In this document: piece by piece, positions 5,242 through 20,137 of the stretch | Layout of the letters: each line of letters begins with the position of its first letter | How positions within the stretch are numbered: position 1 is the stretch's first letter | Origin: Pirellulales bacterium | GTDB lineage: Bacteria > Planctomycetota > Planctomycetia > Pirellulales > Lacipirellulaceae | Length of the DNA stretch: 64,000 nt | Assembly: GCA_022448265.1 (NCBI GenBank) | Contig: JAKVCC010000003.1 | Location: 1-64,000, forward strand | Reading direction: 5' to 3' | Position numbers and translations under genes: made by a program | Notes under the pieces: generated by a model | What the model was told of the DNA's origin: nothing | Database searches by the model: none | Seen by the model: the letters and a program-made list of their open reading frames with translations, nothing else

Positions 5242-6951
5242 ATGACGAACAAACCCGACCCCAAGCCAGCCAAGCTCAGTGATGTGGAAGGCTTTAAACA
5301 GCAGAGTCACTTTCTACTCGACCCGATTCCCGCAGAACTTGGCGACGAGAATGAATTTTTTGGTAAAGCGTCTATCCAGGTCCTCAAGAATCACGGCACC
5401 TACCAGCAGGACAACCGTGACACGCGCAAGCAGGGAAAAACCTACAGCTTCATGGTGCGCACAGCCATACCGGGTGGCAAACTGACCAGCGCCCAATTGC
5501 TGGCCGAGCTGGACCTGTGCGACGAGCTGGGCAATACGACGTTGCGCATCACCACCCGCCAGGGGCTGCAGTTACATGGCATTCTAAAGGGCAACCTCCG
5601 CGAAACGATCCGCCGGATCAATGAGTCGCAGCTCACGACGCTGGCCGCTTGTGGCGATGTCGAGCGCAATGTCATGTGCTCGCCGTGCCCCTACAAAGCA
5701 GATCCGACTTACGACCAGATGCAGCAACTGGCAGACAAACTTGCCCAACACTTGCAGCCGCGTACCACCGCCTACCACGAACTATGGCTCACCGACCAGG
5801 AAACGGGAGAAAAACAGCTGGCCGGTGGAGGCTCGGCGGGCCACGAAATCGAGCCCCTCTACGGGCCAACTTATTTGCCGCGCAAGTTCAAGACAGGGAT
5901 TGGCTTGCCTGGCGACAATAGTGCAGACATTTATTCGCAGGACCTGGGTCTGCTGGCCGTATGTGAAGACTGTAGTATTGTCGGATACAACGTGCTGGTC
6001 GGAGGCGGCTTTGGCACCACGCCCAGTGCTGTCAAAACATTTCCCGCAATCGCCCAACCGATGTGCTTCGTGAGTGCGACGCAAGCGGTTGATGTAGCCA
6101 CAGCCATCATCAAAGTGCAGCGCGACTTCGGCAATCGGGCCGATCGCAAGGTTGCCCGCCTTAAATATTTAATCCACAACTGGGGCATCGATCGGTTCAA
6201 AGCCAAGGTCGAGCAATACTATGGCGACCAGCTTCCCCCGCCTCGCGCTATGCATGTCCATGCGTTCAACGACGGCATGGGCTGGCACGCCCAGGGGGAC
6301 GGTCGCTGGTTCTACGGCCTAAATATCGAAAACGGCCGCATCAAGGACGAAGGCTTATACCGGCTGAAATCGGCCCTGCGGGAGATTTGCACAACCTTAG
6401 CTCCTGCACTTCGGCTGACGCCCCACCAGAGTATTATCTTTTGCGATTTAGAGAAAGAAGACCGCAATCGCCTGGCGAAAATTTTTCGCGAGCACTGTGT
6501 TCCGCTTTCGGAGGATTTTTCCAATGTGCGCCGCTGGGCAATTGCGTGTCCTGCGCTGCCCACCTGTGGATTGGCGATTACCGAAAGCGAACGCGTGCTG
6601 CCGGAGTTGATCGACCAGCTGGAGTCTGAACTGGAAGCATTGGGACTCGCCGGAGAGGTCTTTACGACGCGAATGACCGGCTGCCCCAACGGATGCGCCC
6701 GCCCCTACAACTCCGACATCGGTCTGGTTGGCAAAACCCTGAACAAATATACCATACTGCTTGGCGGCCGCCTGCTCGGCGACCGACTCAATGTGATTTA
6801 TAAAGATAAGGTCCCCACATCCGAAGTGGTGCCAACCCTGGTCGCCGTGTTCCGCTATTACAAGGAGGCCCGTCAGGAAGGCGAAAGCTTTGGGGATTTT
6901 TGTCACCGCCAAGGCGTTGAGGAACTCTTGGCGCATTGCGACGGGCCTTAA
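5242..6951 (+). CDS. Assimilatory sulfite (or nitrite) reductase, siroheme/4Fe-4S subunit
   Basis: A 569-residue member of the sulfite/nitrite reductase hemoprotein family. It has the duplicated ferrodoxin-like/siroheme fold: NTTLRITTRQGLQLHGILK and LAACGDVERNVM in the first half, KYLIHNWGID in the middle, and the cofactor cysteines C436-x5-C442 and C481-x3-C485 (GCPNGCARPYNSDIGLVGK), which ligate the 4Fe-4S cluster coupled to siroheme. The C-terminal pattern resembles plant/cyanobacterial sulfite reductase and CysI more than nitrite reductase, so the six-electron reduction of sulfite to sulfide is the likelier reaction. No flavoprotein or ferredoxin gene is adjacent, so the electron donor is unknown. 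The gene stands alone; the start ATG is at 5242. Confidence 0.85.
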   Translation: MTNKPDPKPAKLSDVEGFKQQSHFLLDPIPAELGDENEFFGKASIQVLKNHGTYQQDNRDTRKQGKTYSFMVRTAIPGGKLTSAQLLAELDLCDELGNTTLRITTRQGLQLHGILKGNLRETIRRINESQLTTLAACGDVERNVMCSPCPYKADPTYDQMQQLADKLAQHLQPRTTAYHELWLTDQETGEKQLAGGGSAGHEIEPLYGPTYLPRKFKTGIGLPGDNSADIYSQDLGLLAVCEDCSIVGYNVLVGGGFGTTPSAVKTFPAIAQPMCFVSATQAVDVATAIIKVQRDFGNRADRKVARLKYLIHNWGIDRFKAKVEQYYGDQLPPPRAMHVHAFNDGMGWHAQGDGRWFYGLNIENGRIKDEGLYRLKSALREICTTLAPALRLTPHQSIIFCDLEKEDRNRLAKIFREHCVPLSEDFSNVRRWAIACPALPTCGLAITESERVLPELIDQLESELEALGLAGEVFTTRMTGCPNGCARPYNSDIGLVGKTLNKYTILLGGRLLGDRLNVIYKDKVPTSEVVPTLVAVFRYYKEARQEGESFGDFCHRQGVEELLAHCDGP

Positions 6952-7101
6952 TCTGCACATTCCATCTGCATGCACACAGGCTGCACAGAATCACTCTACT
7001 TGATCGTCACTTAAAATGTCGCCTTTTCCGCTGGCTGTGTCGTCTCCATCCGGCCCTCGGAAAGTCCACGTTAGCCCGAATATCTCATTTCCCCCTTTGC
7101 C

Positions 7102-8019
<918 letters not shown>

Positions 8020-8076
8020 TGACGCTGCCCAGATGGGCCTTCCCCGAAACTCTCTCCCCCTACCCAGAGGCCTCCC

Positions 8077-8709
8077 GTGATTCGACTTTTGCAGCTTACT
8101 ACCATTTGTATCTGCGGTGTTTGTCTCCTGGGTGCGCCCACCTGGGCGGTCGAAGCCTCAAAAGGAAAAGTCACCAAGAAAGTCTTTTTTGATATCGCCA
8201 TTGACGGCCAGCCGGCGGGACGGATTGTGATTGGACTTTTTGGTGACGACGTGCCCAAAACGGTGGATAACTTTCGCGCTTTGTGCACGGGTGAAAAAGG
8301 GACCGGCGACTCCGGGAAACTCCTGCACTACAAAGGCAGCATTTTCCACCGGGTGATTCCCCAATTCATGCTCCAGGGAGGCGATTTCACCAACTTTAAT
8401 GGTACGGGCGGAGAGAGCATTTACGGGCGGACCTTTGCCGACGAGAACTTCAAGTTTCGTCACCACGGACCGGGTGTCTTGAGCATGGCCAACTCGGGCC
8501 CCAACACCAACGGCTCGCAGTTTTTCCTCACCACTGTTTCAACCCCATGGCTCGATGGCAAACATGTGGTGTTTGGCCGTGTCGTCGACGGCATGGAGCT
8601 TGTCAAGACGATCGAGGGCCTGGGGTCGCAAAGCGGCCGGACCCGCAAGAAGATCCTGATCTCTGACTGCGGAGAGCTCAAACCTGCCGCGACGTCGGCC
8701 ACCAATTAA
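8077..8709 (+). CDS. Cyclophilin-type peptidyl-prolyl cis-trans isomerase, exported
   Basis: A 210-residue protein starting at GTG 8077. The first roughly 24 residues form a signal peptide ([21 protein letters not shown]), so it is expected to act in the periplasm. The cyclophilin domain is complete: [23 protein letters not shown] holds the catalytic Arg-Phe-Met-Gln cluster, with [15 protein letters not shown] and [12 protein letters not shown] after it. The family catalyses proline isomerisation during folding of exported proteins. The insertion with CTGEKG resembles eukaryote-like cyclophilin A rather than short bacterial PpiB. It probably shares a transcript with the upstream dehydrogenase. 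Confidence 0.93.
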
Positions 8710-9027
8710 TGCCCCCATCAACTCTGACTGACGGCCTGGCAAAAGCCCAGTCGTCCAGCTCAAGTCCCTAAAGAACCGGCTCGGACGACAGCTGCGTCTC
8801 CGGCCAGCTAACGCAACTCAGAAGCCGGTCAAACACCTCGGGTGGACATGCGTCGTGCCGCTACACCCGGTACAGCTGCTGGGCAAGATCGTAGAGATGG
8901 CCCCCTATCTGCCAGCATTCGTCCCGGCCCCCTCCCGACCAAATCCATGAACCACCCGACTCAAAGATCATCCACGGAAAGGAGCGGGGGAAAGATTCGC
9001 ATGGAAGTGGTGCATCGGACCGGTCGG
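8710..9027. other. Intergenic region, no gene seen
   Basis: This 318-base stretch separates the cyclophilin stop from the convergent ribBA stop. An open frame running into the antisense of ribBA shows no family resemblance. No clear hairpin with a T-run, repeat or RNA element was noticed. Confidence 0.5.
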
Positions 9028-10239
9028 TCAATCCAGTGGCAACCGGTGCCCCAACTTGTCGCGCTTGGTCGCCAGATACTCTGCATTGCCCGGATGAATG
9101 GGCGGCACGATAGACACCTGGTCGACGACTTCTAGGTCAAAACCGCCATAGATAAATGCATCAGTCTTCTTGGGATTGTTGGTCAGAAGCCGCACCTTGG
9201 TTAGTCCCAAATCCTTCAACAGTTGAATGCCAACGCCATAGTCGCGAGGATCGGCCTTATATCCTAGCGCCAGATTTGCCTCCACCGTGTCGAGCCCCTC
9301 ATCCTGCAATTTGTAGGCCTTGATTTTTTCCACCAGTCCAATGCCGCGCCCTTCCTGCGGCAGATAAACCAGCACACCACATCCCTCGCGGCTAATCATA
9401 TCGAGCGCCAGGTGAAGCTGGTCGCCGCAATCACAACGGAGCGATCCCAGTAAGTCACCCGTAAAACAAGACGAATGCAATCGGACCAACGGAGCCACTG
9501 ATTTGGCCAGATCTCCAATGACATAAACAATCGGCTCCTGCGATTCATACTTCACTCCGTACGCGATCAACTGGCCATCGCCATATCGGGTTGGCAGGTT
9601 CGCCTCGACCTGCCGATAAACGAGCTTTTCACGCACCCGTCGATACGCGATCAACTGCTCGATGGAGATGATTGGCAGCTGAAATCTTTTGGCCAAATCA
9701 CGGAGCGCCTCACGACTCGCACGATCGCCCCGTTCATCGAGGACTTCGCACAGCGCACCTGCTGGATTCATACCCGCCATGCGCGCCAGATCGACGGCCG
9801 CCTCGGTGTGGCCGGCACGGCGGAGTACGCCGCCCGCCTTGGCCACCAGTGGAAAAAGGTGGCCCGGACGGTGGAAGTCGGTCGGCACACTGGCCGGATC
9901 ACAGAGGGCCAAAATCGTCTGGGCCCGTTCCGCAGCCGTAATGCCAGTGCGGGTGGTGCGGTGATCCACCGGAACGGTGTAGTTGGTCCCCAACGGCGCC
10001 GTGTTGTCTTCCACCATCGGCTGCAGTCTGAGCCGCTCGCTGACGCTGGGAAGAATGGGCATGCACAGTTGGCCCCGGCCGTGCGTGATCATAAAATTGA
10101 CCGTCTCGGGGGTCACCGTCTCCGCGGCACAAACGAAATCCCCTTCGTTCTCGCGGTCCTCCGCATCGACAACAATGACAACCTTGCCTTGCCTAATTGC
10201 CTCAACGGCTTCTTCAATCGTAGAAAAATTTCCGGACAC
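9028..10239 (-). CDS. ribBA: Bifunctional DHBP synthase/GTP cyclohydrolase II (RibBA)
   Basis: Supplies both precursors of riboflavin synthesis. The N-terminal half is 3,4-dihydroxy-2-butanone-4-phosphate synthase: VVDAEDRENEGD (acidic metal site), THGRGQLCMP, RPGHLFPLVAKAGGVLRRAG and GHTEAAVDLARMAG. The C-terminal half is GTP cyclohydrolase II: LHSSCFTGDLLGSLRCDCG carries the three zinc cysteines, followed by LPQEGRGIGLVEKIKAYKLQ and LLTNNPKK. The usual HSEC at the first zinc cysteine reads HSSC here; the ligand itself is kept. Length is 403 residues, standard for the fusion. The start ATG is at 10239. No FMN riboswitch core was recognised upstream. Confidence 0.95.
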   Translation of the reverse strand: MSGNFSTIEEAVEAIRQGKVVIVVDAEDRENEGDFVCAAETVTPETVNFMITHGRGQLCMPILPSVSERLRLQPMVEDNTAPLGTNYTVPVDHRTTRTGITAAERAQTILALCDPASVPTDFHRPGHLFPLVAKAGGVLRRAGHTEAAVDLARMAGMNPAGALCEVLDERGDRASREALRDLAKRFQLPIISIEQLIAYRRVREKLVYRQVEANLPTRYGDGQLIAYGVKYESQEPIVYVIGDLAKSVAPLVRLHSSCFTGDLLGSLRCDCGDQLHLALDMISREGCGVLVYLPQEGRGIGLVEKIKAYKLQDEGLDTVEANLALGYKADPRDYGVGIQLLKDLGLTKVRLLTNNPKKTDAFIYGGFDLEVVDQVSIVPPIHPGNAEYLATKRDKLGHRLPLD

Positions 10240-10460: not shown

Positions 10461-11327
10461 ATGCCTCATTCACGTACCGCAAGTTTGCTGCTGGCCTTGG
10501 TAATCCTGCTCACCAACTGGGTAGCACTGCAGGCGGAGGACATCGAAACCCGCTATGGGGAGATTTACCTCCAGCGAGAATCAGGCCCGCTCAAGGCCGA
10601 TCTCTATATGCCCTCTGGCAAGGGCCCCTTTCCGGCCGTGCTGGTGGTGCATGGCGGAGCTTGGTGCATGGGCTCGCGCGCGCAGCTTTCTGGCTTTGCG
10701 CAAGCCGCAGCTCGCCATGGCATGGTGGCGGTGGCAATCAGCTACCGACTTGCGCCGCAGCACAAGTTTCCAGCACAGATCGAAGACTGTAAAGCGGCTG
10801 TGCGCTGGATCCGTTCCCAGGCGGTGGAGCTGAAAATTGACCCCCAACGAATAGGCGCTTTCGGCTATTCGGCTGGGGCTCATCTGGCCACCCTGCTGGG
10901 TGCGACCGATAGCAACGATGGACTCGATGGCGTGGCTGACCCCGACAGGCACCTCAGCGCGCGGGTGCAAGTGGTAACCGGCGGTGGATTGCCATGTGAC
11001 TTCCGCGTGCTGGAGCTCGATTCCCAGGACCTTGCATTCTGGCTGGGGGGCACGCGGCGTGAAGTTGCCGAGGTGTACCGGCAAGCGTCGCCACGGGCCT
11101 TTGCCTCCGACGACGATCCGCCCATGTTTTTTTTCCACGGTCAAAATGACGACCTCGTGCCTCTGTCGAGCCCCCGTGCAATGTGCGAGTCGCTACAGGC
11201 GGTTGGCGTGACGGCCGATCTTTACATCGTGCCAAAAATAGGCCACACCTTTGCCGCATTTGATCGGACAGCACGACAAAAAACCCTGGCCTTTCTCGTC
11301 CAACATCTAGCAGCGGACGTCGAATAA
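10461..11327 (+). CDS. Exported alpha/beta hydrolase (esterase/lipase, BD-FAE/HSL-like)
   Basis: A 288-residue protein beginning at ATG 10461 with a signal peptide (LLLALVILLTNWVALQAEDIE). The reading frame extends upstream, but that part has no signal-peptide logic. Catalytic features: oxyanion-hole motif HGGAW at 64-68, nucleophile Ser137 in GYSAG, Asp230 or Asp231 in GQNDDLVP, and His262 in IGHTF. Such proteins hydrolyse carboxyl esters, often acetyl or feruloyl groups on polysaccharides; the actual substrate is not readable. Its stop codon overlaps the next gene's start (TAATG), which suggests translational coupling to the unknown protein that follows. Confidence 0.87.
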   Translation: MPHSRTASLLLALVILLTNWVALQAEDIETRYGEIYLQRESGPLKADLYMPSGKGPFPAVLVVHGGAWCMGSRAQLSGFAQAAARHGMVAVAISYRLAPQHKFPAQIEDCKAAVRWIRSQAVELKIDPQRIGAFGYSAGAHLATLLGATDSNDGLDGVADPDRHLSARVQVVTGGGLPCDFRVLELDSQDLAFWLGGTRREVAEVYRQASPRAFASDDDPPMFFFHGQNDDLVPLSSPRAMCESLQAVGVTADLYIVPKIGHTFAAFDRTARQKTLAFLVQHLAADVE

Positions 11328-12238
11328 TGTGCAACGCTCTGTTTTCACCGCTGCCCCGCGAAGAATACGTTGAGCAGCTCCACTTTTTTACAGTACTCGG
11401 CGAAGGGCTGCGGAAAAATAGCCCCGCGCAGGATGTCCTGGCTTCAGTGCGCGAGGAGGTGCTGGCCACCACCAAACTGCCCATGGCAGTTGATTTTCTG
11501 CTAGCGGAACTCCGGCATCAGGGAATGTTCTCCCTGGGGATGCAGAGGCTAACCCACTACTTCACACCATTTCAATGCTATGTAATGCGCGAGGCGGAGA
11601 GCGACCATGGACGCTTTGATCTCCGCATCGGCCTGCAGATTCTTGGGCGCGAGGCCCAATATAGAATGGACCAGGCCATCAGCCGCACGGGCCTGTTTCT
11701 CTACCAGTTTGAAGCCCTTTGCCGCAACCGGCTCGGCTATGACGATGGGTTGAAGGCGATGGCCGCCGACCCCTCCTACGACCTGCCCTGGCGGGAATGG
11801 ATTCTCACAGTAAGACGCCAGATCGGCATCATCGAATTGGCCGACATGATTTATGTTCGTAGCGACTTCTACCACGAGCGGTCGGGCAAGGCGCGCGCCG
11901 CTGCACCTGGCCCGCCGATTCATCCCAACCAGGATCGTTTAGAAGCAGAATCACAGGTGCTGTTCGACCGGCAAGAAGGCCGAATTGCATGGGCAAACCG
12001 TCAAAAAGACCCGCTGCTGCTGTTCTCTGCGCTCCACCGCCAGCTCGGCTACCCACAAGTTCCCCGCACCCAACAGGCGGCTCCCGAAGAGCGCCTGCTG
12101 CCTGTGCTGGCCCGCCGGGTAGAGCAGTTGGAAGCCCGCCTAAAACTGGTCGAGGAAGAACAGCGTGGCGGCATTCAGTTGGAACAGTTTTACGGGGCCA
12201 ATCGCGAGGACGACGATGCAAGGCGAGGGAAGGCTTAA
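11327..12238 (+). CDS. Conserved-looking protein of unknown function
   Basis: I do not recognise this 303-residue protein. It has no signal peptide or membrane segment. The N-terminal 200 residues look alpha-helical, with segments such as REEYVEQLHFFTVLGEGLRK and FYHERSGKAR. A proline/alanine-rich linker follows. Residues about 255-285 (LLPVLARRVEQLEARLKLVEEE) form a probable coiled coil, suggesting oligomerisation. It starts with an ATG that overlaps the TAA of the exported hydrolase by one base, so the two are probably translated together even though one is exported and the other appears cytoplasmic. Codon use looks like that of the neighbours, and the length of the uninterrupted frame supports a real gene. 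Confidence 0.75.
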   Translation: MCNALFSPLPREEYVEQLHFFTVLGEGLRKNSPAQDVLASVREEVLATTKLPMAVDFLLAELRHQGMFSLGMQRLTHYFTPFQCYVMREAESDHGRFDLRIGLQILGREAQYRMDQAISRTGLFLYQFEALCRNRLGYDDGLKAMAADPSYDLPWREWILTVRRQIGIIELADMIYVRSDFYHERSGKARAAAPGPPIHPNQDRLEAESQVLFDRQEGRIAWANRQKDPLLLFSALHRQLGYPQVPRTQQAAPEERLLPVLARRVEQLEARLKLVEEEQRGGIQLEQFYGANREDDDARRGKA

Positions 12239-12503: not shown

Positions 12504-13067
12504 GTGAGTTTTCAGCTCAGTCTTAATACCGAGTCGGTATCGGCTGCCTATCCCGATCAGCCGCTGTTCGTAGCTCCTGACGCATCGGTGGGCGAAGTGC
12601 TCCAACTCCTCCGCGCCCAGCGGAACGGTAGCGTCCTGGTTTGCGAGACAGGGACGCAAAATACGGAACCCGGCAATGGTCCTCTGCTGGGCATTTTCAC
12701 CGAACGTGATGCGCTCAAGCACATGTCTCTTGCCAAAGGCCCGTGGGCCGAAGGCGGTAGTAGTGAGGACGAGGCAACTGGGGGGCTGAGCGGTGAAGCT
12801 GTTGATAGGGGAATGGCCCAACCCGTATCGGCCGTCATGTCGCCAGACCCGGTTTGCCTGAGGGCCGATACGAGCGTCGGCGAAGCAATTCAGACCATGT
12901 CGAAAGGTGGCTATCGACATCTGCCGATTTTGAACGAGGCCGATCTGCCCACTGGTATCGCCACCGTCTATGGAATCCTACGTTTTCTGGTCGACCATTT
13001 TCCACAAACGATTTACAACCTGCCCCCCGAACCGGGTGCAGCACCGAGCGAGCGCGAAGGTGCCTGA
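12504..13067 (+). CDS. Tandem CBS-domain protein upstream of korAB
   Basis: About 187 residues with two CBS motifs: the first spans residues 15-75 and ends LLGIFTERDALKHM, the second spans 105-165 (VMSPDPVCLRADTSVGEAIQ, then GGYRHLPIL). A Bateman module of this kind usually binds adenosine nucleotides or SAM. A low-complexity acidic linker separates the two. I preferred GTG 12504, preceded by AGAAGG at 12488-12493, over a TTG at 12465. It lies 87 bases upstream of the 2-oxoacid oxidoreductase alpha gene, and a second CBS protein closes the same operon. An energy-sensing regulatory subunit is an inference from this arrangement. Confidence 0.85.
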   Translation: MSFQLSLNTESVSAAYPDQPLFVAPDASVGEVLQLLRAQRNGSVLVCETGTQNTEPGNGPLLGIFTERDALKHMSLAKGPWAEGGSSEDEATGGLSGEAVDRGMAQPVSAVMSPDPVCLRADTSVGEAIQTMSKGGYRHLPILNEADLPTGIATVYGILRFLVDHFPQTIYNLPPEPGAAPSEREGA

Positions 13068-13154
13068 TACCGCAAGCTGAACGACCCACGAAATCCTAAT
13101 CCCTAGGAATCCTCTCTAAACACCCTGCCCAGAGTGAAGGAAGTGTCGGCAACT

Positions 13155-15005
13155 ATGGCCAACTCGACTGTCTCCAAGTCCGTCTCCAATCTGCTCGAAG
13201 CGACAGTGCGCTTTTGCGGCGACTCGGGTGACGGCATGCAATTGGCTGGAACCCAGTTCACCAATACTTCAGCCCTAATAGGCAACGACGTTGCCACATT
13301 CCCTGACTTCCCCGCCGAAATTCGGGCGCCTCGCGGCACCAAGGCAGGCGTCAGTGGTTTTCAGATCCATTTTTCAAGTAACGAGATCTACACGCCGGGC
13401 GACACGGTCGATGCTTTGGTGGCCATGAATCCGGCCGCCTTGGCGACCAATTTGGCCGATCTCCGGGACGGCGGCGTCCTGCTAGTGAACAAAGATTCCT
13501 TCGAGAAAAAAGGCTTGGAGCAGGCTGGCTATCAGTCCAATCCTCTGGAAGACGGCAGTCTCAAAAAATACAAAATTCACTCGGTCGAAATGACTAAGCT
13601 CACCCGCTTGGCCGTCCAGGATTGCAGCTTGAGTCAGAAAGAGGCCGACCGTTGCCGCAATTTCTTCGCCATGGGGCTCGTGTTTTGGCTCTACGATCGG
13701 CCTCTCGAGCCGACGTTGCGATTTATCGAACAAAAGTTTGGCGCCAAGGTTCCGCAAGTCGCTCAGGCGAACTCGCTGGTCCTCAAAAAAGGTTTTCATT
13801 ACGGTGAAACCGTGGAGGCGATCAGCACGCAATACCACGTCGATGCGGCCCAATTGCCTCCCGGCACGTATCGCAACATCATGGGAAATGTGGCTTTGGC
13901 CTGGGGTTTGATTACCGCAGCGCAAAAAAGTGAAAGGCGATTGTTTCTTGGTGCATACCCGATTACTCCGGCCAGTACAATCTTGGAAGAACTCGCAAGG
14001 CACAAAAATTTCGACGTGCTAACGTTTCAGGCAGAGGATGAAATTGCGGCGATGACTGCGACGATCGGCGCTTCATTTGCCGGCGCGATGGGTGTCACCG
14101 CCAGTAGCGGCCCCGGAATTGCGCTCAAGGGCGAAGGTATGGGGCTGGCAGTGATTACCGAACTGCCCATGGTAGTGATCAACGTTCAGCGGGGCGGTCC
14201 GTCCACTGGCCTACCAACAAAGACCGAACAAGCCGACTTGCTGCAGGCCATGTTCGGCCGCAATGGCGAATGCCCGATGCCAATTGTGGCCGCCCGCAGC
14301 CCGGGCGATTGTTTCGATGTTGCACAAGAAGCCTGGCGACTGGCCGTGCGCTATATGACACCTGTTCTGCTGCTAACCGATGGTTATGTCGCCAATGGTT
14401 CCGAGCCTTGGAGGATCCCAGAGGTCGCTGAGATTCCTAAAATACCGGTAGAACACCCTGCGCCGTTGAACGATGGAGATCTGTATCAACCCTACCAGCG
14501 CAATGAGCGCCTGTCGCGACCTTGGGCGGTGCCGGGCACGCCCACGCTTGAACATCGACTGGGTGGGCTCGAAAAGCAAGACATCACAGGCAACGTCAGC
14601 TACGATCCTGTCAATCACGAACACATGTGCAGGCTGCGGGCCAAAAAAGTGGCGAACATTGCCGACGACATCCCACTTCAAGACCTGGATGGCCCGGATA
14701 CGGGCGAAGTACTGGTGCTCAGTTGGGGCGGCCCGTACGGTGCCTGTGCCACCGCCGTCCACCAAGCCCAAGCGGCCGGCAAGAAAGTGAGCCATTGCCA
14801 TCTACGCTACTTGAATCCCTTCCCTAAGAATCTCGGCCAGATTTTGCAGCGTTTTGGCAAAGTGCTAGTCCCCGAACTCAATCTGGGCCAGTTGGACCTG
14901 ATGATCCGATCCCGATTTATGATCGACACGGTGGGCCTGCATAAAATTCAAGGGAAACCATTTGCCGTGGCGGAGATCCTCGCCAAGATCGAGGAGCTTG
15001 CGTAA
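13155..15005 (+). CDS. korA: 2-oxoacid:acceptor oxidoreductase, alpha (fused gamma-alpha) subunit
   Basis: About 616 residues. Residues 15-200 are the gamma domain ([17 protein letters not shown] near the start, [15 protein letters not shown] after it). The rest is the alpha, pyrimidine-binding TPP domain: [34 protein letters not shown] and [20 protein letters not shown]. With the beta subunit 66 bases downstream it should oxidatively decarboxylate a 2-oxoacid with CoA and reduce ferredoxin. The two-subunit gamma-alpha plus beta architecture is typical of 2-oxoglutarate:ferredoxin oxidoreductase, so that substrate is likeliest but not proven. The ATG at 13155 has AAGGAAG upstream; a GTG at 13134 is possible. 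Confidence 0.93.
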
Positions 15006-15071
15006 TCCACATGGCAACAAATTTTTCCCCAACATCGTAACCAACCAACCCCAACAGTTCTTCCAAGCATC

Positions 15072-16097
15072 ATGAGCATCGAAACGACCCTTCCGGTTTT
15101 GAAACCAGCAGATTTTGCCAGCGACCAGGATGTTCGCTGGTGCCCCGGCTGCGGCGATTATTCTATTTTGGCGCAGATGAAGAAGATGCTGCCTACGCTG
15201 GGATTACCGCGGGAGAATATCGTCTTCATTTCGGGAATCGGCTGTTCCAGCCGTTTTCCGTACTACATGAACACCTACGGTATGCACTCGATACACGGGC
15301 GTGCGCCAGCGGTCGCAACTGGATTGAAGTCGTGTCGGCCAGATCTTCAGGTATGGGTCATTACCGGAGATGGTGACGGCTTGTCGATCGGTGGCAATCA
15401 TCTGATGCACTGCATTCGCCGCAACGTGGATTTGAACATCGTGCTTTTCAACAACCGCATCTACGGTTTAACCAAGGGGCAATACTCGCCTACTTCGCCA
15501 CTGGGCAAAAAGACCAAGAGTACACCGATGGGGGCCATCGACAATCCGCTGCATCCCCTTTCGATTGCCATTGGGTGCGAAGCGACATTTGTCGCGCGTA
15601 GCGTTGATACTAACATTCGGCATTTGAGTACGACCCTCAAGCGTGCCGCCGATCATCGCGGTACCGCGTTCGTCGAGGTCTATCAAAACTGCAATGTGTT
15701 TAATGACAAAGCCTGGGAATACGCTACGAATCGCGAGTCGAAAGCCGATACGACACTGGAGTTGGAGCATGGCCGACCGCTCATCTTTGGCAAAGATCGC
15801 AACAAAGGCATCCGCCTCAACGGCCTCGACCCAGAGGTGGTTGAACTGGGCAAAGGCATCACTGAAGACGACTTGCTGTTTCACGACGAGCGCAGCCCGG
15901 AGCCAAGCCTAGCGTATTTATTAAGCCGCATGAGGCACGAAGACGGCTTCCCAGAACCGATCGGCGTATTCCGTTCCGTGGATGCCCCTCGCTACGACTC
16001 ATCGATCAACGAACAGGCGAAAGAGGCTACGCGGGTCAACGGTGTCGGCGATTTGGAGGCCTTGTTCCACTCGGGCGAAACATGGGAGGTGACATGA
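15072..16097 (+). CDS. korB: 2-oxoacid:acceptor oxidoreductase, beta (TPP-binding) subunit
   Basis: A 341-residue partner of the preceding subunit. RWCPGCGDYSILAQ contributes two of the conserved cysteines that bind a 4Fe-4S cluster, with GIGCSSRFPYYMNTYGMHSI after it. The thiamine-diphosphate motif GDGDGLSIGGNHL is intact, followed by LFNNRIYGLTKGQYSPTS. It acts in the cytoplasm as the decarboxylating half of the enzyme. No separate delta or ferredoxin subunit is encoded nearby. Its stop overlaps the ATG of the downstream CBS protein by ATGA, so those two are translationally coupled. Confidence 0.94.
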   Translation: MSIETTLPVLKPADFASDQDVRWCPGCGDYSILAQMKKMLPTLGLPRENIVFISGIGCSSRFPYYMNTYGMHSIHGRAPAVATGLKSCRPDLQVWVITGDGDGLSIGGNHLMHCIRRNVDLNIVLFNNRIYGLTKGQYSPTSPLGKKTKSTPMGAIDNPLHPLSIAIGCEATFVARSVDTNIRHLSTTLKRAADHRGTAFVEVYQNCNVFNDKAWEYATNRESKADTTLELEHGRPLIFGKDRNKGIRLNGLDPEVVELGKGITEDDLLFHDERSPEPSLAYLLSRMRHEDGFPEPIGVFRSVDAPRYDSSINEQAKEATRVNGVGDLEALFHSGETWEVT

Positions 16098-16615
16098 TAG
16101 CTTGTCCATTTTGTGGATCGGAAAATCCTGAAGGCGCCGACAACTGCGAAGATTGCTCGAATTCGTTAACTGACCTGAGCATACCACGCCCTACAACACC
16201 AGTGGTCCACAGCCTGCTCAAAGACCGCATTGCGTCGCTCAAGCCTAAGACACCTTTCGCTGTGGCACCGGAAACGCCCATCGGCGAAGTTCTGGACCAC
16301 ATGATTGACGAGTCATTCGGCTGCGTGATGATCGTCGCCAACGACATGTTGTTAGGCATTTTCAGCGAATTTGATGCGCTGATGAAGCTCAACACGGACG
16401 TTGCCCAGCATGCGAGTCGACCCATCAGTTCGGTAATGACCCCCGATCCGGTCGCATTGGAGATGAAGCACAAGATCGCGTTTGCCCTGCACAAGATGCA
16501 CGTCGGCGGCTATCGGCATTTGCCTATTTTGGAACAGGGCAGACTGGTTGGCGTGATTTCAATTCGTGACATTCTCAAATACCTGACCAGCCACATCATG
16601 GCAGAAGCGACCTGA
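16094..16615 (+). CDS. Zinc-ribbon plus tandem CBS-domain protein coupled to korB
   Basis: About 173 residues. An N-terminal zinc ribbon (CPFCGSENPEGADNCEDC, two CxxC pairs) is followed by two CBS motifs: FAVAPETPIGEVLDHM with LLGIFSEFDALMKL, and VMTPDPVALEMKHKIAFAL with GGYRHLPILEQGRLVGVISI. The start at 16094 was chosen because GGGAGGTGAC, one of the strongest ribosome-binding sites in the window, sits directly before it and because ATGA overlaps the korB stop. The second CBS motif strongly resembles that of the protein at 12504 (both contain GGYRHLPIL). Binding of an adenine nucleotide and control of KorAB are inferred, not shown. Confidence 0.87.
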   Translation: MIACPFCGSENPEGADNCEDCSNSLTDLSIPRPTTPVVHSLLKDRIASLKPKTPFAVAPETPIGEVLDHMIDESFGCVMIVANDMLLGIFSEFDALMKLNTDVAQHASRPISSVMTPDPVALEMKHKIAFALHKMHVGGYRHLPILEQGRLVGVISIRDILKYLTSHIMAEAT

Positions 16616-18509: not shown

Positions 18510-19742
18510 TTAGAAAACCGGCTTGATGGTCTGCAGCCGTGCCTCCGCCAGAGCCATCAGTGCATCTTCGGCCGCTTCGTCCGCCGCTTCGTAAGTTACC
18601 GAAAAACGCAAGTAGGCTCCAGCGTCATCCCATGGCACCGTACAGATCGATTGCTCGGTGATTAGATACTGGCTCGCCTCTTCGCCACTGGAAAACGTCG
18701 CCCCACCTTCTAAACCCTTAGGCGATGGCGTGTACAGAAAGTACGTCCCGCCAGGCACCTCACAGCGAAATCCACATCGCGTCAGCATTGCCACTAATTT
18801 TTCCAACCGCCGCTTGTACTTGGCGTGGATTCGGCGCGGGATCGACTCGTCATCCAGCGCCGCAGCGGCCGCCTTTTGAATAGCAATGAATTGGCCGGAG
18901 TCACAGTTATCCTTCACATCAGCAAACGCACTCACCAGCCGCTGGTGCCCACAAACCCAGCCCATTCGCCAGCCAATCATGTCGAAGCCCTTGGACATGG
19001 AGTGCACTTCGACACCCACGTCCTTGGCACCCGGCACACTCAGGAAACTACTGGGCTCGCGATCAAACGAGAGCAGGGCATGGGCCGCGTCCTGCACAAC
19101 GACCAATTGATGCTCGAGGGCGAACTGGACAACTTCCTCGTAAAAGGCGCGCGGAGCCGTCGCCCCCGTGGGACTGTTGGGATAACACAACACGAGTAAC
19201 TTGGCCTTCGCCAAAATATCCGGCGAAATACCGGCCAGATCTGGCAGGAATTGATTCTCAGCCAGGAGGGGCAACTTGTGCACAATACCGCCATAGTAGG
19301 CTGTATGGGTGCCCGCAACCGGGTAGCCCGGCACCGTCATGAGTGTAATATCCCCCGGATTGATCAGCGCCGCAGGCAGCATCGACAATGCAGTTTTGGA
19401 ACCAATGCAATGGTTGACTTCTGTCGTTGGGTCAAGCCGCACGTCGTACTCGCGCAACATAAATCGGGCGACAGCTTCCTTGAATTCGCCCACACCATTG
19501 TCGGCATAGCCGCGATTCTCGGGCTTGGCTATTTCCTGAGCCAGCACTTGGCAAACGGCGGCGTCGGCCACCGAGTCGTTTTCACCGATCCCAAAATCGA
19601 GTAGCGGCCGCTCGGGATAATCGGCGAGCGCCTTACGTTTGGCACGCTTGATTTTCTCAAACTTGTAAATCGCGGTACCCTTGCCGTAATGGGCCCCACC
19701 GATTCGCTCGGAAAATAGTTGCTGAAAGTAGGGGTCGGTCAT
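18510..19742 (-). CDS. dapL: LL-diaminopimelate aminotransferase
   Basis: A 410-residue fold-type I PLP aminotransferase. It has the DapL-like start YGKGTAIYKFEKIKRAKR, then LLDFGIGENDSVAD, NRGYADNGVGEFKEAVARFM, CYPNSPTGATAPRAFYEEVV, and the PLP lysine in SMSKGFDMIGWRMGW. The family converts tetrahydrodipicolinate directly to LL-diaminopimelate for lysine and peptidoglycan precursors. The divergence from the plant/Chlamydia type suggests the DapL2 subgroup; a related aminotransferase with another substrate cannot be fully excluded. MTDPYFQQLF at 19742 was chosen over an upstream start. Confidence 0.85.
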   Translation of the reverse strand: MTDPYFQQLFSERIGGAHYGKGTAIYKFEKIKRAKRKALADYPERPLLDFGIGENDSVADAAVCQVLAQEIAKPENRGYADNGVGEFKEAVARFMLREYDVRLDPTTEVNHCIGSKTALSMLPAALINPGDITLMTVPGYPVAGTHTAYYGGIVHKLPLLAENQFLPDLAGISPDILAKAKLLVLCYPNSPTGATAPRAFYEEVVQFALEHQLVVVQDAAHALLSFDREPSSFLSVPGAKDVGVEVHSMSKGFDMIGWRMGWVCGHQRLVSAFADVKDNCDSGQFIAIQKAAAAALDDESIPRRIHAKYKRRLEKLVAMLTRCGFRCEVPGGTYFLYTPSPKGLEGGATFSSGEEASQYLITEQSICTVPWDDAGAYLRFSVTYEAADEAAEDALMALAEARLQTIKPVF

Positions 19743-20137
19743 TTTATGTAAGAGCGGAAAAAGCAACCACACGGCACGCGCGCGGACGGCGCTAGCCGCA
19801 GGTAGTCAAGGTGGCTTCCCAGGCGGCGCCTCGGGCAAAGAAATACGAATCGCTCAGACTACCGCATCGCACTTAAATGGACAACCGACTGCATTGCCAA
19901 AATTGAAATGTTGCGCACTGCTATTGCAATTGACCTGTTCCCGTTGGCTCCCGCGCCTCGTACGACCTTATACCACGGCCGTAACTCTCTGTCCCCTGGT
20001 GCAAAAAACCACTGGCATGGTGATCTTGGTAGCACGGCGACGGTCCTTTGGTATTGGGCAAGTGTATAGCCAGTGTTGATAAGAAAGGGTTTTTCGTATC
20101 GTTAACTGGTACACTCGTGCCGCAGGCCCAGGTGGCC
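19743..20137. other. Intergenic region upstream of dapL
   Basis: About 395 bases between the divergent dapL start and a nitrilase remnant. It must contain the dapL promoter, but I could not pick a convincing -35/-10 pair. No gene, repeat or RNA was recognised. Confidence 0.4.

Follow-up and report, generated by a model that had tools for sequence, protein, structure and literature searches.

2-Oxoacid:ferredoxin oxidoreductases are reversible enzymes and a source of low-potential electrons. In the 2009 paper on the Mycobacterium tuberculosis enzyme KorAB, the regulation of KOR was said to have "yet to be identified" (PMC2773412), and that paper cites GarA and OdhI as inhibitors of 2-oxoglutarate dehydrogenase. 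Control by small proteins carrying a tandem CBS pair has been described for other enzymes. AcuB, an operon-encoded Bateman protein of Bacillus and Geobacillus, binds and inhibits AcuC in its form loaded with adenosine monophosphate (AMP), as reported for the Geobacillus proteins (PMC13121692), and an effect of diadenosine tetraphosphate (Ap4A) on AcuB was reported separately (PMC13039410). The cyanobacterial CBS-CP12 (Hackenberg 2018; PMC9406205) binds AMP and acts on PRK via its C-terminal CP12. In this work, we focus on four genes, CBS1, korA, korB and CBS2, located in a stretch of 64,000 nucleotides from a Pirellulales bacterium (contig JAKVCC010000003.1), referred to hereafter as the window. 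We lean towards the view that they form an operon in which KorAB is accompanied by its own adenine-nucleotide-sensing pair, named here U (CBS1) and D (CBS2), which would gate 2-oxoglutarate oxidation through the C-terminal tail of U.

The four genes lie on the plus strand in the order U, korA, korB and D, with the following features:

12504-13067, plus strand: CBS1 (U), tandem CBS pair with a GTG start, 187 amino acids; two PF00571 domains (E 1.5e-19) and a predicted CBS fold; U orthologues lie 5' of korA in many lineages
12990-13064, plus strand: C-terminal tail of U, VDHFPQTIYNLPPEPGAAPSEREGA, matching the consensus of the tail-bearing CBS proteins
13155-15005, plus strand: korA, fused gamma-alpha subunit of 2-oxoacid:ferredoxin oxidoreductase, 616 amino acids; TIGR03710 over its cut-off
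15072-16097, plus strand: korB, beta subunit, binding thiamine pyrophosphate (TPP), 341 amino acids; TPP_enzyme_C
16084-16093, plus strand: ribosome-binding site GGGAGGTGAC, read from the sequence, ahead of CBS2 and within the end of korB
16094-16615, plus strand: CBS2 (D), tandem CBS pair, 173 amino acids; two PF00571 domains (E 1.2e-20); D orthologues lie 3' of korB or are fused to KorB
16103-16156, plus strand: N-terminal zinc-ribbon-like segment of D, CPFCGSENPEGADNCEDC, two CxxC pairs; DZR match below its cut-off

The two small proteins score 70.5 and 74 bits against the Pfam CBS profile (cut-off 24), with two domains each. Intergenic distances are 87 bp between CBS1 and korA and 66 bp between korA and korB, while the korB stop and the CBS2 start overlap as ATGA. 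The initial annotation had recognised the co-oriented set ending in a CBS protein with a zinc ribbon, the ATGA coupling of korB to CBS2 with its ribosome-binding site, and a GGYRHLPIL-type motif shared by the two CBS proteins; all of this stands, GGYRHLPIL being present exactly in both U and D.

With regard to the enzyme, KorA matches POR gamma (88.3 bits), POR_N (170.9 bits) and PFOR_II in Pfam, and reaches 643.9 bits against TIGR03710 of NCBIfam (cut-off 482.75). KorB matches TPP_enzyme_C (112 bits) and, at 249 bits, falls slightly below the 261.9 cut-off of TIGR02177; its cluster cysteines C24, C27, C58 and C207 are invariant in an alignment of 16 rows. Judged from these profiles, korA and korB encode a 2-oxoacid:ferredoxin oxidoreductase of the OAFO/KorAB type. 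The closest structures in the PDB are 6n2n/6n2o for KorA and 6n2n_B for KorB, and we take 6n2n to be the Magnetococcus 2-oxoglutarate enzyme (OGOR).

The initial annotation had called for a survey of korAB neighbourhoods in Planctomycetota for conserved CBS partners. KorB was searched in 149 Planctomycetota genomes, the regions around the best full-length matches were taken, and CBS genes were located using a profile whose seed was the set of PF00571 matches of the window's own genome. Sufficient sequence on either side was available for 46 Planctomycetota korAB loci; CBS-pair genes of the same orientation directly adjoin korAB in 19 of them, upstream in 11 and downstream or fused in 16, including 8 with both. 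When truncated loci are included, the association spans about 18 Planctomycetota families. Chance adjacency is ruled out by the density of CBS genes: with about 9 CBS open reading frames in the 3.64 Mb window genome, chance would place about 0.01 CBS gene in the 2 kb around a given locus, and the expectation for the survey is less than one locus. Furthermore, when the KorB alignment was used to scan the genomes of the GTDB collection, 80 further loci were obtained, and the same cluster was found in six phyla beyond Planctomycetota, namely, Chloroflexota, Acidobacteriota, Omnitrophota, Elusimicrobiota, KSB1 and Poribacteria. Several of these records are contigs of metagenome-assembled genomes, and the assignment of a given record to its phylum may be in error. 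The proposed association thus withstood the survey, and it proved both real and stronger than the initial annotation had claimed.

At five loci, four in Planctomycetota genomes of different families and one in Anaerolineae, a single open frame encodes a complete KorB, a linker and a CBS pair; the fused CBS pair is D, at the KorB C-terminus. An assembly or frameshift artefact is ruled out, as the five loci belong to different genomes, contain no stops and each have a different linker. The tree of KorA and KorB requires at least three origins of these fusions. Such repeated fusion is strong evidence that both proteins work together, and a dedicated partnership between KorAB and CBS proteins is well supported. 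In the predicted structure of the Anaerolineae fusion, the KorB and CBS folds are complete and of high confidence, and residues 332-361 have mostly a predicted local distance difference test (pLDDT) below 50, pointing to a linker that would be flexible. The predicted template-modelling score of 0.68 does not settle how KorB and the CBS pair are placed relative to each other, and some D rows are misplaced in the alignment used for this model.

The main conserved feature that is specific to KorAB resides in the tail of U, which the initial annotation overlooked, together with the fusions and the paralogy of U and D; its interpretation is supported in part. Across 42 tail-bearing CBS proteins, the consensus is FPxxVxNLPPxP...(E/D)G(G/A)-COOH, at the very C-terminus, and 40 of the 42 end in GG or GA, vs none of 28 tail-less ones. 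Every CBS-carrying locus with readable flanks has one tail-bearing CBS protein; where there is a single CBS gene, the tail sits on its product, and where there are two, the tail-less partner in most cases has a zinc ribbon or is joined covalently to KorB. The AlphaFold model of U combines a confident CBS pair (pLDDT 86) with a tail forming a short helix followed by a segment of low confidence (pLDDT 62-69), which suggests a free extension, in keeping with a peptide that would become ordered upon binding a partner.

The alignment of tail-bearing proteins was then searched against the same 149 Planctomycetota genomes, with matches required to cover the tail. The tail is present in 27 genomes, and KorAB in 26 of these, compared with 62 of the 149 overall (Fisher p 5e-11, with no correction for the relatedness of the genomes). 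The remaining tail genome, G058, has its tail-CBS gene close to the end of a contig (about 120 bp away), where no korA start is readable. Among 121 Chloroflexota genomes, the tail occurs in two and KorAB in five; both tail genomes are within the five, and in both the genes are linked. In a set of 18 named genomes, the tail follows the lineages with CBS-bearing KorAB; Streptomyces, Actinomadura, Microbispora and Chitinophaga lack it. The CBS genes of G111, G077, G006 and G166 are unlinked, yet these genomes have KorAB; no KorA or KorB gene was found near the unlinked tail-CBS genes of G111, G077, G001 and G006 within the flanks taken. Tandem tailed and tail-less CBS genes away from korAB were observed in G111 (contig C20), G077 (C35) and G166 (C345). 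In G061 (contig C46, region 6158-10166), a further tail-CBS gene is divergently oriented beside a split, distant and korA/korB/korC-like 2-oxoacid:ferredoxin oxidoreductase, which suggests that further enzymes of this superfamily are served by the tail module.

The two CBS sensor proteins of the initial annotation are not alike. In a tree of the CBS pairs, the upstream (U) proteins are set apart from the downstream (D) ones to a degree far beyond that reached with shuffled labels, the few columns available leaving single branches weakly supported, and from their sequences U and D are distinct, diverged paralogues. At the four loci with two upstream CBS genes, one protein is tailed, whereas its companion lacks the tail and is mostly D-like; the pair thus persists when the gene order changes. 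The N-terminal segment of D follows the pattern C4-x2-C7-x10-C18-x2-C21 and reaches 20.8 bits against DZR (Pfam cut-off 27.3). Of the 20 tail-less D proteins that are free-standing and encoded downstream, 19 have a ribbon, which is absent from all tail-bearing, fused and upstream tail-less CBS proteins. This distribution fits a role of the ribbon in anchoring D near KorB, which a covalent fusion would make unnecessary. The earlier idea that the ribbon docks one of the sensors would fit its restriction to free-standing downstream D proteins, with fusion elsewhere.

As for the ligand, 38 of 42 tail-bearing and all 28 tail-less proteins (66 of 70) have the ribose-contact motif [ST]xx[DN] in their first CBS domain, and the TERD/SxRD form of the motif is retained. 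The second domain shows the motif in 20 of 28 tail-less proteins and only 13 of 42 tail-bearing ones. The best structural matches of the U model include AcuB complexes with AMP, adenosine diphosphate (ADP), adenosine triphosphate (ATP) or Ap4A (Z 16-16.5), CBSX2 with AMP, MJ0100 with S-adenosylmethionine (SAM) or methylthioadenosine (MTA), and CBS-CP12 (5npl/5nmu, Z 15). Adenine nucleotides would thus be the likeliest ligands of U and D, and adenylate sensing is plausible from motif and model. The putative adenylate control of 2-oxoacid oxidation put forward in the initial annotation agrees with the retained motif and with the nucleotide-bound folds nearest to U.

The window genome (3.64 Mb, 97% complete) contains no second POR_N protein besides KorA, and the N-terminal domain of the 2-oxoglutarate dehydrogenase E1 component (E1o) was not found in it. 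For these reasons, and on the basis of established pathway knowledge, KorAB is probably its sole 2-oxoglutarate-oxidising enzyme. E1o is missing in 23 of the 27 KorAB genomes with a tail-CBS protein and present in 22 of the 35 without one (Fisher p 2e-4). This distribution suggests that the sensor is retained where KorAB is the sole route for 2-oxoglutarate oxidation, the tree-aware sample being too small to confirm it. In one genome, G121 (contig C4), two korAB copies occur, one with U and D and the other without CBS genes, and E1o is also present; it offers a natural comparison of regulated and unregulated copies.

Taking these elements together, we can propose that U and D probably form a heterodimeric U:D CBS disc, which would bind adenine nucleotides. 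D would be held at KorB, in this operon through the zinc ribbon and in other lineages through covalent fusion to the KorB C-terminus, and the C-terminal peptide of U (FPxxVxNLPP...EGA-COOH) would reach into KorAB and alter its activity according to the bound nucleotide. The cell's only 2-oxoglutarate-oxidising step would thereby follow energy charge. Nucleotide gating through the U tail is the most likely mechanism, for which we infer the complex, the ligand, the docking roles and the sign of control. More tentatively, and with somewhat less than even confidence, we can extend this scheme to an undescribed two-protein CBS sensor dedicated to KorAB in several phyla, with D as the anchor, by ribbon or fusion, and the U tail peptide (NLPP...GG/GA) switching activity with energy charge.

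Several observations weigh against this proposal. It is built on computation, and the putative substrate, 2-oxoglutarate, is assigned from family membership. In a tree-aware pairing (8 pairs, median p 0.25), the E1o association is not significant and amounts to a trend. The motif Asp is lost from the second domain of U in about half of the proteins, including that of the window (GIATVYG). A search of KorA and KorB for a docking signature tracking CBS presence gave only three weakly differing columns, unusable as a docking site, and this candidate was dropped. Finally, 27 of the 46 Planctomycetota loci have no CBS neighbour, and none was found at any sampled Actinomycetota or Bacteroidota locus; with most sampled korAB loci in this state, such control would be dispensable in many lineages.

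Other explanations share part of this evidence. U and D could bind KorAB and respond to a ligand other than an adenylate, such as nicotinamide adenine dinucleotide (NAD(H)), coenzyme A (CoA) or succinyl-CoA, SAM, Ap4A or cyclic di-AMP (c-di-AMP), resulting in redox, product or stress control. Structures near the model do bind SAM or MTA (MJ0100) and Ap4A (AcuB, IMPDH), DarB, a c-di-AMP sensor, is also near, and the motif reports merely an adenosyl or ribosyl moiety. However, the nearest matches are mostly complexes with AMP, ADP or ATP and nothing points to a specific other ligand, and we regard this explanation as rather unlikely. Even less probable, in our opinion, is that U and D no longer sense anything and act as structural or assembly subunits, providing stability, oxygen protection, iron-sulfur maturation or a docking platform for ferredoxin. 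The zinc ribbon, the KorB fusion and the often degenerate second site of U would suit such a scaffold, but the near-universal retention of the first-domain ribose motif speaks against a pure one, which would not need it. That the CBS proteins are simply co-expressed with korAB and act elsewhere, with no contact, could account for the genomes with korAB and no CBS genes and for those with an unlinked CBS pair. It appears highly improbable in view of the recurrent covalent fusions, the near-exclusivity of the tail to KorAB genomes and the survival of the U/D pairing through rearrangement.

If adenylate gating through the U tail is correct, U and D would be, as far as we know, the first proteins described to regulate any 2-oxoacid:ferredoxin oxidoreductase allosterically. 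The sensor pair, with its short, free and conserved C-terminal peptide, offers a directly testable mechanism, and the tail can readily be searched for in sequences to find other enzymes controlled in this way. That CBS partners recur across phyla, at times fused to the enzyme, suggests that central metabolism is subject to a form of energy sensing not described so far.

Around the cluster, a 303-residue protein with no Pfam or NCBIfam match is encoded 5' of the CBS1 gene (11327-12238, plus strand), and homologues of it lie near korAB in five Pirellulales-like loci. On the 3' side and on the opposite strand is an LL-diaminopimelate aminotransferase gene (18510-19772, minus strand; NF004937 over its cut-off).

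In our literature search, we found no described CBS control of any 2-oxoacid:ferredoxin oxidoreductase, nor did a protein regulator of these enzymes turn up in the literature searched, in agreement with the initial annotation, which knew of no KorAB regulation of this form. The enzyme itself belongs to the same family as M. tuberculosis KorAB (PMC2773412) and Magnetococcus OGOR (6n2n/6n2o), with a fused gamma-alpha KorA and a KorB to which the actinobacterial KorB of our survey is about 60% identical; in contrast to the present cluster, no actinobacterial locus surveyed has a CBS partner beside korAB. GarA and OdhI are also small dedicated proteins gating 2-oxoglutarate oxidation, but they are FHA proteins under phosphorylation control and act on the E1o enzyme, not on KorAB. 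TA0289 (1pvm, 2qh1) combines a CBS pair and a metal-binding Cys4 ribbon in one small protein, which D would resemble if its two CxxC pairs form such a ribbon; the PDB title describes TA0289 as rubredoxin-like, whereas the candidate ribbon of D is N-terminal and encoded beside korB. CBS-CP12 resembles U in carrying a C-terminal, partly disordered regulatory tail after the CBS pair, that of CBS-CP12 acting on an enzyme of central metabolism. Its tail is a cysteine-based CP12 that acts on PRK activation, whereas U has no Pfam match to CP12 and its FPxxVxNLPP consensus is of a different sequence, without the CP12 cysteines. AcuB, the closest fold (Z 16.5), is likewise a stand-alone Bateman protein encoded with its target and bears its partner-binding element after the CBS pair, but it carries a C-terminal ACT domain, and its target is a lysine deacetylase. 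No ACT domain follows the CBS pair in U or D, in which Pfam detects only CBS in the former and CBS with a weak DZR in the latter, and which end 25 and 9 residues past CBS, respectively; an ACT or CP12 tail in U is therefore ruled out. Here, the corresponding element would be a 25-residue C-terminal peptide, with two paralogues and a redox enzyme as neighbour. AcuB and CBS-CP12 are thus the nearest precedents, analogous to the action proposed here, with other enzymes and another architecture, and they belong to families different from that of the U/D pair.

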